The notes under the pieces: generated by a model | What the model saw: only the letters and a program-made list of their open reading frames with translations | Told to the model about the DNA's origin: nothing | Databases searched by the model: none | Made by a program: the position numbers and the translations under genes | Assembly: GCF_001295925.1 (NCBI RefSeq) | Contig: NZ_LJHQ01000037.1 | Location: 1-64,000 of the forward strand | Length of the DNA stretch: 64,000 nt | Source of the DNA: Allobosea sp. AAP35 | GTDB taxonomy: Bacteria; Pseudomonadota; Alphaproteobacteria; Rhizobiales; Beijerinckiaceae | Direction: 5' to 3' | Part shown: piece by piece, positions 3,192 through 9,402 of the stretch | How the letters are laid out: every line of letters begins with the position of its first letter | Position numbering within the stretch: the first letter of the stretch is position 1

Positions 3192-4316
3192 CTAGCCGAC
3201 CCCGAGGGCCATGTCGTCCCGGTGGATCATCTCGGCGCGGCCGGGATAGCCGAGAATCGCCTCGATATCGCGCGACGCCTTGCCCAGCACCAGCGCCGCC
3301 TCGCCAGCATCATAGGCGACGAGCCCGCGGCCGAGGACGCGGCCCTCGACATCGCGGATCAGCACGGCGTCGCCGCGCGCGAAATCGCCCTCGATCCGGC
3401 TGACGCCGACGGGCAGCAGGCTGGCCCCGCCGCGCAGCGCACGGGCCGCACCGGCATCGACATGAAGCGCGCCGCGAGGCTCCAGCGAGCCGGCGATCCA
3501 GGTCTTGCGGGCGGTCGCGGGCGTCGAGGCGGTGAGGAACCAGGTGCAGCGCGCGCCCGAGGCGATCGCGGCGAGCGGGTTCTTCGGCCGTCCGTCTGCG
3601 ATCAGCATATGGGTGCCCCCGGCGGCCGCGATCTTGCCGGCCTCGATCTTGGTGCGCATGCCGCCTCGCGACAATTCGGAGGCCGCCCCTCCCGCCATCG
3701 CATCGATCTCCGGCGTGATGCGCTCGACCAGCGGGATATGTCGCGCCGCCGGATCGCGGGCGGGGGGCGCGGTGTAGAGGCCGTCGATGTCGGAGAACAG
3801 GACGAGCAGGTCCGCGCCCGCCATGGTGGCGACGCGGGCGGCGAGCCGGTCGTTGTCGCCATAGCGGATCTCGGTGGTGGCGACGGTGTCATTCTCGTTG
3901 ATCACCGGGATCGCGCGCAGATCGAGCAGGCGGCCGAGCGTGGCGCGCGCGTTGAGATAGCGGCGGCGCTCCTCGGTGTCGGCGAGCGTCAGCAGGATCT
4001 GCCCGGCGGTCAAGGCGTGCGCGCCCAGCGCCTCCGACCAGGTCCGGGCCAGGGCGATCTGGCCGACCGCTGCGGCGGCCTGGCTCTCTTCGAGACGCAG
4101 CGGGCCCGAGGGCAGGCCCAGCACGGTTCTGCCCAGAGCGATGGCGCCCGAGGAAACGACGAGAATATCGGCGCCGCGCTGGTGCAACTCGGCGAGATCC
4201 TCGGCCAGGGCGGCGAGCCAGGCCTGGCGCAGACGGCCGCGCGCACGGTCGACCAGCAGGCTCGATCCGACCTTGACGACGATGCGGCGGAACTGGTTCA
4301 ACGACGGCGTCTGCAC
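3192..4316 (-). CDS. proB: Glutamate 5-kinase ProB
   Basis: ProB phosphorylates glutamate to gamma-glutamyl phosphate, the committed and usually proline-inhibited step of proline synthesis. The product has the amino-acid-kinase start [41 protein letters not shown] and the [13 protein letters not shown] segment, followed by a C-terminal PUA domain from about residue 280. The GTG at 4314-4316 (reading [11 protein letters not shown]) gives the family's usual length of about 374 residues. A TTG at 4347-4349 preceded by an AGGCAGG stretch is an alternative. The frame stays open further upstream, but that part is not conserved-looking sequence. Confidence 0.93.
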
Positions 4317-6399: not shown

Positions 6400-6495
6400 A
6401 AATCGTCGCAGGCAGAATAGTCTCTCCGCCGGTTGAACCTTTTCCAAGCTCGCCGCGACCAACCCTTGCGAGCCGGATGTTAGGCCTCGAGGGCG

Positions 6496-7056
6496 ATGCA
6501 TACGGAATCGGACGACGAACTCGTCAAGCGGATCGCCGGTGGCGACCGGCTCGCGATGAAGGTGCTGTTCTCACGGCATCAGACGCGGGTTTATCGTTTC
6601 GCGCTGCGCCTGCTGCGCGACGAGACGATGGCGGAGGATGTGACCGGTGACGTCTTCATGGATCTCTGGCGTCAGGCCGACCGGTTTGAGGGGCGCTCCT
6701 CGGTCACGACCTGGCTGCTCACGATCGCGCGCAACAAATCCTACTCGGCCCTGCGCAAGCGCCGGGACGCCGGGCTCGACGATGATGTCGCCGAGAGCAT
6801 GGAGGACGAAGCCGACGATCCCGAGGTCGTGCTGCAGAAGCAGGACAAGGGGCACGCGATCCGGGCCTGCCTCAAACAGCTGTCGCGCGAGCATGCCGAG
6901 GTCATCGATCTCGTCTACTACCATGAGAGCTCCATCGAGGAGGTCGCCCGGGTCGTCGGCATCCCCGAGAACACGGTCAAGACGCGACTGTTTCATGCCC
7001 GCAAGAAGCTGGGTGAACTGCTCAAGAACGCGGGGATCGACCGGGGCTGGCCCTGA
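6496..7056 (+). CDS. ECF-type RNA polymerase sigma factor
   Basis: The 186-residue product has only sigma regions 2 and 4, as in extracytoplasmic-function sigma factors. Region 2 spans about residues 20-90 (RVYRFALRLLRDETMAEDVT, FMDLWRQADRFEG). Region 4 spans about 125-175, with the helix-turn-helix SIEEVARVVGIPENTVKTRL. An acidic linker (about residues 92-115) joins them. The next gene, 81 bases downstream, encodes a membrane protein with an anti-sigma-like N-terminus, and a secreted subtilase follows. The three form a plausible envelope-signalling unit. The exact ECF group cannot be assigned here. Confidence 0.93.
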   Translation: MHTESDDELVKRIAGGDRLAMKVLFSRHQTRVYRFALRLLRDETMAEDVTGDVFMDLWRQADRFEGRSSVTTWLLTIARNKSYSALRKRRDAGLDDDVAESMEDEADDPEVVLQKQDKGHAIRACLKQLSREHAEVIDLVYYHESSIEEVARVVGIPENTVKTRLFHARKKLGELLKNAGIDRGWP

Positions 7057-7137: not shown

Positions 7138-7815
7138 ATGACCGACGCCATCGCGACCGATCCGCAGCGCGCCGAGATCGAGCTGCTGTTGCCGTTCTAT
7201 GCCAATGGGCGCATCTCGGCGGCCGACAAGGGCCGTGTCGAGGCGGCGCTGGCCGTCGACCCCGATCTCGTTGCTCGGCTTGCCATCATCCGTGACGACA
7301 TGGCCGAGACGACGCTGCTGAACGAGAGCCTGGGCGCGCCATCGCCGCGTGTCCTGGATCGCCTGATGGCGGGGATGGAAGCCGAACCGCGCCGGCTCGG
7401 TCTGCTTGCGACCGCCCGCGGTGGCTTCATCACCTGGCTCGGTGCCGTGATGGCCTCGCAGCCGCCACGACGCCTGGCCTATGCCGGCGCGGCCGCCTGC
7501 GCGCTGATCGCGATTCAGGGCATCGCACTGACCAGCATCGCCTTGCGTGAAAACACGGGGTTCGAAACGGCATCTGTTCCTGGCGGCTCGTCGGAGCGTT
7601 ATGTGCTTCTCAGCTTTGCGTCCGATGCGCGGGCCGGCGACATCGCTTCGTTCTTCAGGCGGTTCGATGCATCCGTGGTCGATGGACCGCGTGCCAACGG
7701 CTATTTCAAGGTCCGGGTCGGCGATGCCTCCCTGACGCAGACCCAGGTCGATGCCATTGCGGCGCGGATGAAGGCGGAGGCGGCGATCGTCCGCTTCGTC
7801 GCGCCGGCGCCCTGA
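7138..7815 (+). CDS. Membrane anti-sigma factor without zinc ligands
   Basis: The 225-residue product has a cytoplasmic N-terminal segment (residues 14-50, ELLLPFYANGRISAADKGRV) that follows the pattern of zinc-finger anti-sigma domains but lacks the His and both Cys ligands; DPDL stands where CPAC is usual. One membrane helix lies at about 113-137. The periplasmic part (153-222) alternates strands and helices in a ferredoxin-like pattern resembling the prodomain of the adjacent subtilase. The ATG at 7138 has GGAG 8 bases upstream. By position it should restrain the upstream sigma factor. The anti-sigma role is an inference from context and domain order. Confidence 0.7.
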   Translation: MTDAIATDPQRAEIELLLPFYANGRISAADKGRVEAALAVDPDLVARLAIIRDDMAETTLLNESLGAPSPRVLDRLMAGMEAEPRRLGLLATARGGFITWLGAVMASQPPRRLAYAGAAACALIAIQGIALTSIALRENTGFETASVPGGSSERYVLLSFASDARAGDIASFFRRFDASVVDGPRANGYFKVRVGDASLTQTQVDAIAARMKAEAAIVRFVAPAP

Positions 7816-7850
7816 GCGTCCGGCGCGGGTAACGCGGATGACGCGGCTTT

Positions 7851-7907
7851 CCCCTTCTGCTATCTCGCCCCTTCTGCTATCTCGTCGCTTGCATCGGGTG
7901 CATCGGG
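7851..7907 (+). repeat. Two adjacent tandem duplications in the subtilase leader
   Basis: The 17-base unit ccccttctgctatctcg occurs twice without a gap at 7851-7867 and 7868-7884. Six bases later the 9-base unit tgcatcggg occurs twice at 7890-7898 and 7899-7907. Both pairs are perfect copies. They fill the short gap between the anti-sigma gene and the protease gene, just before the protease ribosome-binding site. Confidence 0.85.
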
Positions 7908-7917
7908 AGGGCGCATC

Positions 7918-9402
7918 ATGACGTCATCGCTCTGCCTGGTTCATCGCCTGAATCGCGCCCTGCGGCTGGCTGGCGGCGGATGCCTTGCCGTCGTGATTGC
8001 CTTGAGCCCCGGTCTTATTCAACCGGTCCAGGCACAGCAGGTGCCGGCGCAGCCGCCGGGCACCGGTGACGCCAACACGCCCGCGGCCGCTCCTTCAGGC
8101 CCCACGACGCGGTCGATTACGGTGCAGCCGCCAGCCTGGCAGCTGCCGTCGGTCTTCGGATCGTCGCGCGCCTCGCGCACGATGGTTCCCGCAGCCAACG
8201 AGACAAGATTCGTCCCCGACGAGATCCTGTTCGAACTCGCCCCCAGTGCTCAGGCCGAAACCGTGTTGCGGCGCTATGGCGCGACGCTGATCACCAGTCG
8301 TCGCGTCGAACTTGCGGGCACGACTCTGATCCGCGCCCGGCTCGAGGCCGGTCGCGACCTGCGCGCGGTCTTGACCCAGATGGCCGACGACAACGCCATC
8401 GCCGGCGCGCAACCGAATTTCACCTATGAGCTTCAGCAGGAGCTGGCGCGGCCGGTCAGCACGACGGCATCCGGTGGTGGACGTTCCGACGTGCCGACGC
8501 TGCGCCTGTCCGATCCGGCGGCAGCTCGCGCCGCGCGGACGCCGCGCCGCGATCTGCCGCCGCAATATGTCATCGACAAGCTGCGGCTGGGCGATGTGCA
8601 CAAGCTCGCGCGCGGGGCCGCGATCCGCGTGGCGGTGATCGATTCCGGGGTCGATGTCGGCCATCCGGAACTGCGCGGCGCGATTGCCGGTTTTTTCGAC
8701 GCGCTCGGCGAAGCCTTTGTGCCGCATGCCCATGGCACGGCGATGGCCGCGGCGATCTCGGCGCAAGGCCAGTTGCAAGGAGTCGCCCCGGCGGCGCAAT
8801 TGCTGGTCGCGCGGGCGTTCTCGGGACACGCCAACTCCGCTTCGGCGAGCGGCACCAGCCTGCAGATCATGGCAGCGATCGAATGGGCGGTGGAGCACGG
8901 CGCCCGCGTGATCAATCTCAGCTTTGCCGGGCCCGAAGACAGGCTGCTCTCCCGCGGCCTGGCCGGCGTCGCCGCCCGCGGGATCATCGCGGTCGCGGCT
9001 GCCGGCAATGGCGGCCCGGGCGCCGCGCCGCTTCATCCGGGCGCCGACCCCAATGTCATTGCCGTGACGGCCACCGATGCCGATGACCGGATCTTCCGCC
9101 ATGCCAGTCGCGGCGGCTATATCGCGCTGGCGGCGCCGGGCGTCGATGTGCTCGCCGCCGAACCGCAGGGGCGCTACGCCTTCTCCTCTGGCACCTCGAT
9201 CGCAGCCGCGCATGTGTCGGGGCTGGTCGCGCTGGTGCTGGAGAAGCGGCCCGATCTCGACCCCGCCGGCATGAGGCGGCTGCTGACGCAGAGCGCGATC
9301 GATCTCGGCTCGAAGGGGCGCGACCCGGTCTATGGCGCGGGCCGCATCGACGCCGCTGCGGCGCTGTCGCAAGCCTTGCCCGTCACCGCTTCGCGGCCTT
9401 GA
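7918..9402 (+). CDS. Secreted S8 (subtilisin-like) serine protease
   Basis: The 494-residue product has a signal peptide ending near residue 40, a Pro/Ala-rich linker, an I9-like prodomain at about 98-168 and a subtilase catalytic domain at 236-480. The triad is visible: Asp242 in VAVIDSGVD, His272 in HAHGTAMAAA and Ser427 in SSGTSIAAAHVSG. The oxyanion Asn364 lies in AAAGNGG. The HGTAMA motif replaces the commoner HGTHVA. GGGAGGG precedes the ATG. It is the third gene of the sigma/anti-sigma cluster, so it is probably part of, or a target of, that envelope response. The substrate is unknown. Confidence 0.9.
   Translation: MTSSLCLVHRLNRALRLAGGGCLAVVIALSPGLIQPVQAQQVPAQPPGTGDANTPAAAPSGPTTRSITVQPPAWQLPSVFGSSRASRTMVPAANETRFVPDEILFELAPSAQAETVLRRYGATLITSRRVELAGTTLIRARLEAGRDLRAVLTQMADDNAIAGAQPNFTYELQQELARPVSTTASGGGRSDVPTLRLSDPAAARAARTPRRDLPPQYVIDKLRLGDVHKLARGAAIRVAVIDSGVDVGHPELRGAIAGFFDALGEAFVPHAHGTAMAAAISAQGQLQGVAPAAQLLVARAFSGHANSASASGTSLQIMAAIEWAVEHGARVINLSFAGPEDRLLSRGLAGVAARGIIAVAAAGNGGPGAAPLHPGADPNVIAVTATDADDRIFRHASRGGYIALAAPGVDVLAAEPQGRYAFSSGTSIAAAHVSGLVALVLEKRPDLDPAGMRRLLTQSAIDLGSKGRDPVYGAGRIDAAAALSQALPVTASRP

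Follow-up and report, generated by a model that had tools for sequence, protein, structure and literature searches.

Three consecutive genes, all on the + strand, for an extracytoplasmic function (ECF) sigma factor, a membrane anti-sigma factor and a secreted S8 subtilase lie in the first 64,000 nucleotides of contig NZ_LJHQ01000037.1 of Allobosea sp. AAP35, a Bosea-type genome (this entire stretch is referred to as the window). We propose, with about an even chance of being right, that these genes constitute a signalling module, in which the periplasmic C-terminal domain of the anti-sigma factor (the C-domain) has the I9/fervidolysin prodomain fold and docks the mature partner subtilase. The gene order, the linkage, the fold, the profile match, the promoter-like element and the linker motif described below were computed, and the mechanistic steps were inferred.

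Proteins were taken as stop-to-stop open frames and trimmed by alignment. The sigma factor gene (6496..7056) encodes a protein of 186 residues that matches PF04542 (3.4e-19) and PF08281 (2.9e-14) and scores above the cut-off of NCBIfam NF009168. It is adjoined, as expected of a class I membrane anti-sigma factor, by the anti-sigma gene (7138..7815), whose product of 225 residues comprises, according to the family alignment, a cytoplasmic anti-sigma domain, one transmembrane helix and the periplasmic prodomain-like domain. The N-terminal domain matches zf-HC2 weakly in the window (E 0.099), the zf-HC2 cut-off being passed by relatives such as L076, L077, L079, L186 and L189, and the NCBIfam matches of the whole protein (NF052375, 3.7e-8; NF010501, 1.3e-7) both stay below cut-off. 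The transmembrane helix is predicted at residues ~113-136 (7474..7545) from a hydrophobic stretch that follows PPRR, and the C-domain spans residues 153-225 (7594..7812). In the relatives L031-L060, which are mostly Bosea, the anti-sigma protein is 67-87% identical. The subtilase gene (7918..9402) encodes 494 residues with an N-terminus that, judged by eye, resembles a signal peptide. Its prodomain (residues 98-171; 8209..8430) is supported by a structure model and by a match to PF22148 of 5.5e-4 and 20.7 bits, just under the cut-off of 21, and members of its prodomain family match PF22148 in 27 of 37 cases (E 0.1 or better). The catalytic domain (8617..9342; PF00082, 5.9e-38) contains the complete triad and the oxyanion asparagine of S8 proteases (Asp242, His272, Ser427 and Asn364). 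The model of the subtilase aligns with pro-Tk-subtilisin (2e1p) at Z 44.3 over 345 residues, covering both the prodomain and the catalytic domain. The subtilase is the sole PF00082 match in the whole genome at E 0.001 or better.

A reading made from the sequence alone had suggested that residues ~153-222 of the anti-sigma factor and ~98-168 of the subtilase share the same order of secondary structure elements. AlphaFold2 models of the two regions agree with this view and show one fold. Residues 145-225 of the anti-sigma factor (predicted local distance difference test, pLDDT, of 87.7) were modelled as E10-16, H22-31, E35-38, E46-51, H57-68 and E74-80, and the subtilase fragment starting at residue 86 (pLDDT 85.7) as E13-22, H28-34, E37-45, E50-57, H63-71 and E76-86. 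Both models thus have six elements in identical order and a beta-alpha-beta-beta-alpha-beta topology, as in the I9 prodomains represented by PF22148 and by the inhibitor POIA1. The anti-sigma model aligns with residues 6-72 of pro-subtilisin E (3whi_B) at Z 6.5 with a root-mean-square deviation of 3.0 over 64 residues, and with POIA1 at Z 6.2. Unlike I9/PF22148 prodomains, the C-domain has a GP-containing hairpin between the second and third strands (DGPRxxG) and belongs to a separate polypeptide, where it comes after the anti-sigma and transmembrane segments, the S8 catalytic domain being encoded by the next gene.

The likeness is also visible in profile comparisons. Profiles were built from 69 C-domains and 69 subtilase prodomains, after removal of near-identical rows from 93 and 84 sequences, respectively. 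When aligned with hhalign, they matched at 93.8% with a score of 38.3 over 60 columns (E 1.7e-7 for one comparison), and the alignment recovered the register proposed earlier, namely VLLSF/ILFEL, ASVV/ATLI, KVRV/RARL and ARMKAE/TQMADD. The maximum scores of the prodomain-profile controls were 13.4 for 60 column shuffles, 22.5 for 60 shuffles of 8-column blocks and 13.5 for reversed profiles. The score was 36.5 without Bosea and 22.7 with Bosea-only profiles, and a second comparison with smaller alignments gave 75% and 82%. As single sequences, the two domains of the window align at about the level of chance (local score 30, against a shuffled mean of 24.5 with a standard deviation of 5.0), and the C-domain of the window has no Pfam match. 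The resemblance is therefore real, although it emerges only at the level of the family. In a set of 50 diverse C-domains, 11 matched PF22148 (E 0.1 or better), more than matched any other Pfam family there, and its cut-off of 21 bits was passed by three of the 21 full-length anti-sigma proteins that were scanned (L081, 22.8 bits, or 24.7 bits for its C-domain alone; L185, 22.0; L186, 24.7). The protein of L186 is particularly telling, because it joins a zf-HC2 match of 46.1 bits at one end to the PF22148 match at the other and has a subtilase gene beside it. The profile match to a prodomain family on which the sequence-only reading depended is thus present. A PF22148 search of the genome itself gave weak matches at two other places (E 0.875 and 1.24) and hit neither the C-domain nor the subtilase prodomain of the window. 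Outside the order, 18 C-domains (17 once near-identical rows were removed) matched the Hyphomicrobiales prodomains at 94.1%; this set is not fully independent, because it was found with the Hyphomicrobiales C-domain profile. Altogether, the family profiles make the assignment of the C-domain to the prodomain fold likely.

The second line of evidence is the linkage of the three genes. Our set of 92 loci (52 plus 40, several sharing genomes) has a sigma gene in 91, the remaining locus beginning inside the anti-sigma gene, and a subtilase match beside the anti-sigma gene in 84. Among the eight loci without a subtilase, five end less than about 600 bases from the anti-sigma gene, and L062 has about 1.5 kb left. 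We also searched 297 Hyphomicrobiales genomes, in which anti-sigma places with E≤1.8e-16 and subtilases with at least 318 bits were retained and weaker rows left out; among the matches listed, the next subtilase was a 267-bit fragment and the rest had 240 bits or less. This gave 84 anti-sigma places and 96 subtilase places of the module type. A subtilase lay within 5 kb of 77 of the 84 anti-sigma places, always on the same strand (77/77), 71 times downstream and six times upstream; the linkage expected from the sequence-only reading was thus found. The subtilase type occurred in 78 of the 82 genomes with the anti-sigma factor (Fisher p-value of 8e-58, uncorrected for relatedness). When read directly, three of the seven genomes classified as having the subtilase only (G069, G111 and G228) did carry an anti-sigma gene beside it, and in G250, classified as having the anti-sigma factor only, a subtilase match is present but cut by the contig end. 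Within 37 Bosea genomes, the subtilase type accompanied the anti-sigma factor in 29 of 30 cases and was found in none of the seven genomes that lack the anti-sigma factor; in the single exception (G004) the anti-sigma gene lies 573 bases from the contig end. Outside the order, 20 stretches were examined (G668, G333 and G528 were left out). Three C-domain-profile matches (L200, L202 and L203) read like serine hydroxymethyltransferase and were removed before counting. A subtilase was near 13 of the 17 remaining anti-sigma-like loci, which belong to other Alphaproteobacteria and to other classes of Pseudomonadota; L187 keeps the adjacency with its anti-sigma gene on the opposite strand. The genes thus remain linked although their order changes, an argument for function.

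Upstream of the sigma gene, an ECF-type promoter element, TGAACC-N16-CGAC (6434..6459, + strand), ends 36 nucleotides before the start codon. The element is conserved at this place in 32 aligned Bosea-type sequences, and a fixed regular expression, TGAACC-N15/16-CG[AT]C, found it no more than 220 nucleotides upstream of sigma in 79 of the 92 loci. This distribution suggests that the sigma operon is probably autoregulated. A scan of the genome itself with TTGAACCN{13,17}GCGAC returned nine matches, compared to none for the reversed control. These comprise the sigma promoter, a match ahead of the gene for a small secreted protein, and seven others that show no clear connection to the module. A further match of the promoter expression, at position 4300 (- strand) of the window, falls within what looks from its sequence like a glutamate 5-kinase gene, as it does in four other Bosea-type loci, and is probably a chance occurrence in conserved coding sequence.

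The small protein mentioned above (G000 contig C10, ~77458-77840; L206) looks secreted and has a glycine-zipper stretch and two cysteines. Its relatives (L039:7897-8226, L042:7900-8244, L043:7422-7748, L066:7270-7626 and L113:3791-4063) occur in other Bosea and in further taxa, where they carry the element and are located next to the subtilase. These proteins have about 90-120 residues, with a glycine-zipper-like stretch and a Cys-containing tail of the VERxNRxGExxxxRxVC type, and are encoded directly behind TGAACC-N15/16-CG[AT]C. They are likely to be co-regulated with the module, judging from this arrangement. A similar glycine-zipper segment is inserted between the signal peptide and the prodomain of the subtilases of L011, L013, L015 and L022 (other Bosea), for example GPAAVGVGAGIIGG. 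In addition, genes for large secreted-looking proteins (L134:964-5181, L073:615-4127, L129:7588-11250, L143:4008-7529 and L150:7336-11654) are found behind the module promoter element, divergent from sigma or nearby. DUF11 exceeds its cut-off in those of L134 and L143, DUF7929 matches one L150 protein, and the others have no Pfam match. It is possible that these large proteins are substrates of the subtilase.

Two features of the anti-sigma factor bear on how it might respond to the protease. The first is the end of the C-domain. The last residues of subtilisin propeptides and of POIA1 enter and plug the active site of the protease. The C-domain ends flush with its last strand, about five residues short of the ends of these proteins; the last residue of the model corresponds to residue 72 of 77 in the subtilisin prosegment (1spb_P) and to residue 71 of 76 in POIA1 (1v5i_B). 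According to these structure alignments, the C-domain of the window has no active-site-reaching tail of the I9 type. The tail is at most 13 residues long in 90 of the 93 aligned Hyphomicrobiales members, being as short as that of the window in 71, and it has 14 or more residues in three, one of which (L060) has unread bases; longer tails occur in some distant lineages. The second feature is a juxtamembrane motif, FETAS (residues 142-146; 7561..7575), which stands out as an entropy trough in a variable linker and is a candidate site-1 cleavage region. Linker position 145 is alanine in 51 of 53 members, the surrounding stretch being otherwise variable, and [FY].TA[ST] was found in 40 of 54 non-redundant members, where the [FY]xTAS motif follows the predicted membrane helix on its outer side at a distance of about 6-10 residues. 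Looser forms (YRTLS, YQTLT, YRALG etc.) were seen in 10 of 13 distant members inspected. In two Rhodopseudomonas proteins (L075:4995-5816 and L080:5001-5813) the C-domain is kept and preceded by a long Pro/Ala-rich insert, and there is no subtilase in the flanks.

Because the C-domain lacks the active-site tail, docking would not block the protease. The evidence points to docking rather than plugging, with cleavage of the anti-sigma factor as the most economical outcome, and the C-domain probably acts as a docking or receptor domain that feeds regulated cleavage of the anti-sigma factor. The sequence-only reading had offered two roles for the C-domain, namely that the secreted protease binds or cuts the anti-sigma factor or that the domain buffers the protease, and it is the second of these that is weakened by the short tail. 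In the mechanism that we favour, the sigma factor would transcribe its own operon, including the subtilase gene. The exported and self-matured subtilase would then bind the C-domain via the surface previously used by its own prodomain. Such docking would leave the protease active and bring it to the exposed [FY]xTAS linker outside the membrane. The site-1 cut could be made by the docked subtilase itself, or by a DegS-type protease admitted through docking, whereupon a site-2 protease and cytoplasmic proteases would complete the degradation and release the sigma factor. The system would stay off as long as the protease is engaged by substrates or by its free prodomain. A wider version of this idea, which we hold more tentatively and at somewhat less than even probability, is that of a closed loop throughout the Pseudomonadota, where the prodomain fold was recruited as anti-sigma receptor and the occupancy of the protease sets anti-sigma cleavage, with a caspase-type partner in at least one lineage. 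The sigma factor would make the protease, and the workload of the protease would report the state of the envelope.

Several observations weigh against the proposed module. Cleavage by a co-regulated protease would create a positive loop that requires a brake, and none was identified here. Twelve loci with a sigma gene lack the promoter element, as defined by the fixed regular expression. With respect to linkage, the two Rhodopseudomonas loci have no subtilase in flanks of about 5 kb beside the anti-sigma gene, and four of the 17 distant loci lack a subtilase as well. In one of these, from another class of the phylum (L198:4953-7042), 12 kb contain no subtilase, and the sigma factor and the C-domain anti-sigma factor adjoin a caspase-type protease that looks secreted (PF00656, 2.2e-39). 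Conversely, unlinked orphan copies of the subtilase exist (G330:C31, L281; G055:C1:4445428, L282; G263:C9, L283; G303:C163, L284), and no sigma or anti-sigma match was found near the second subtilase copy in these stretches; the promoter element is present upstream of the orphans of L281 and L284. With respect to the fold, a Foldseek search with the anti-sigma model gave zero matches at 1e-3 or better, many other ferredoxin-like folds also align with this model, and the VIA structure list mixes prodomains (Z 7.4 in the top row) with S6, Lrp/AsnC, ACT and NikR. The fold search alone can therefore not settle the identity of the C-domain. A search of PDB sequences with the C-domain profile (hmmsearch) returned a single chance match (E 0.71). 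With respect to descent, the prodomains of the distant partners match the distant anti-sigma set at 18.5% and the Hyphomicrobiales set at 6.2%, compared to 98.6% for the Hyphomicrobiales subtilase prodomains. A partner-specific sequence signal is likewise absent. In 56 pairs (the non-Bosea-type pairs plus that of the window), matched C-domains and prodomains scored 28.3 on average and mismatched ones 28.0 (permutation p-value of 0.33). The sequence-only reading had spoken of a prodomain copy; a recent duplication of the prodomain of the adjacent subtilase is not supported by these scores, and any common origin is therefore old.

The main rival involves the same docking with the opposite sign. 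In such a homeostat, bound protease would stabilise the anti-sigma factor. Once substrates titrate the protease away, a DegS-type site-1 protease would gain access to the TAS linker on the bare domain, and the sigma factor would make more protease. With the promoter element in front, the protease gene mostly comes right after the two regulatory genes, an arrangement that would suit negative feedback. The element also precedes genes for the small secreted proteins, which are possible substrates, and the missing tail of the C-domain would fit this view as well. However, the present data do not distinguish stabilisation from cleavage. We regard negative feedback of this kind as somewhat unlikely.

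A second rival is that the C-domain is a SPOR-like or other ferredoxin-like sensor of glycan strands or of a small ligand. In that case the subtilase would be a mere output of the regulon and the prodomain likeness of the C-domain the result of fold convergence. This view was addressed by using SPOR, another ferredoxin-like periplasmic domain, as a control, with a profile built from relatives. The SPOR profile indeed matched the Hyphomicrobiales C-domains at 83.8% (score 30.8), compared to 0.7% for an AsnC/Lrp control profile, and is a nearer competitor than the sequence-only reading had taken into account. Moreover, SPOR matched six of 44 C-domains in a Bosea-rich set, where PF22148 matched four, and five of 50 in the diverse set. 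These scores imply that part of the signal reflects a shared ferredoxin-like fold, which also counts against our proposal, and that the fold is firmer than the descent. On the other hand, the best SPOR match (L073, E 0.0023) has 18.6 bits and stays below the cut-off of 21, whereas three members pass that of PF22148. In 39 of 40 subsamples the prodomains scored higher than SPOR (mean of 36.6 versus 30.0), and the C-domains from outside the order reached only 4.9% with SPOR. In addition, the linkage to a protease that bears a prodomain would have to be a coincidence. We therefore consider a SPOR-like sensor unlikely. Lastly, a membrane-tethered I9-type inhibitor that shields the periplasm from the subtilase, without any signalling role, would agree with the subtilase linkage and with the existence of single-domain I9 inhibitors (POIA1, Z 6.2 with the model), but it is improbable, since such inhibitors extend about five residues beyond the point where the C-domain stops and protection alone needs no fusion to an anti-sigma factor. 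The longer tails in some distant lineages imply that an inhibitory role could differ by lineage.

The proposed docking of a subtilase to its anti-sigma factor has partial parallels in known systems. In the RseA/DegS/RseP system, the anti-sigma factor RseA crosses the membrane once and exposes a linker close to it. The site-1 protease DegS, a serine protease with a PDZ domain, belongs to another clan, is encoded outside the RseA operon and is not known to share a domain fold with the anti-sigma factor. The anti-sigma factor of the window is likewise single-pass with an exposed juxtamembrane linker, and differs in that the protease gene is its neighbour and the predicted fold of its C-domain recurs in the prodomain of that protease. 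A further likeness is to RsiV/sigma-V of Bacillus subtilis, as described in PMC5014341, with a membrane anti-sigma factor, an outer domain that in the present case is presumed to bind an enzyme, and an operon that is autoregulated there and probably so here. RsiV binds and inhibits lysozyme, and this binding triggers site-1 cleavage, which implies that an anti-sigma factor can serve as receptor for an enzyme. The enzyme whose active site RsiV plugs is foreign and comes from the host, and signal peptidase makes the cut, whereas in the window the putative ligand is a protease that the cell itself encodes in the same operon, and the domain is prodomain-like with no plug. Sigma factors of group ECF54 have subtilases nearby as well, without an anti-sigma factor in the cited part of PMC8999054, while here an anti-sigma factor with a prodomain-like domain is present. 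In a literature search of titles and abstract openings no anti-sigma factor with a prodomain-like domain was found, and the gene-context tables of the ECF classification may already list the neighbourhood. The parts, namely ECF sigma factor, anti-sigma factor, subtilase and I9 fold, are known, and their combination was not found described. New features are TGAACC-N15/16-CG[AT]C before sigma, the [FY]xTAS linker, and a C-domain that stops about five residues before the plugging tail.

If our proposal is true, the module would be a simple protease sensor, in which the fold that serves the protease as chaperone and inhibitor has been reused as the receptor of an anti-sigma factor. A promoter, a regulon and a region of cleavage follow as predictions from reading the three genes as a module. 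This reading would also assign a role to the conserved subtilase and ECF sigma factor of Hyphomicrobiales and beyond, and would provide a direct and testable link from the state of a secreted protease to transcription.

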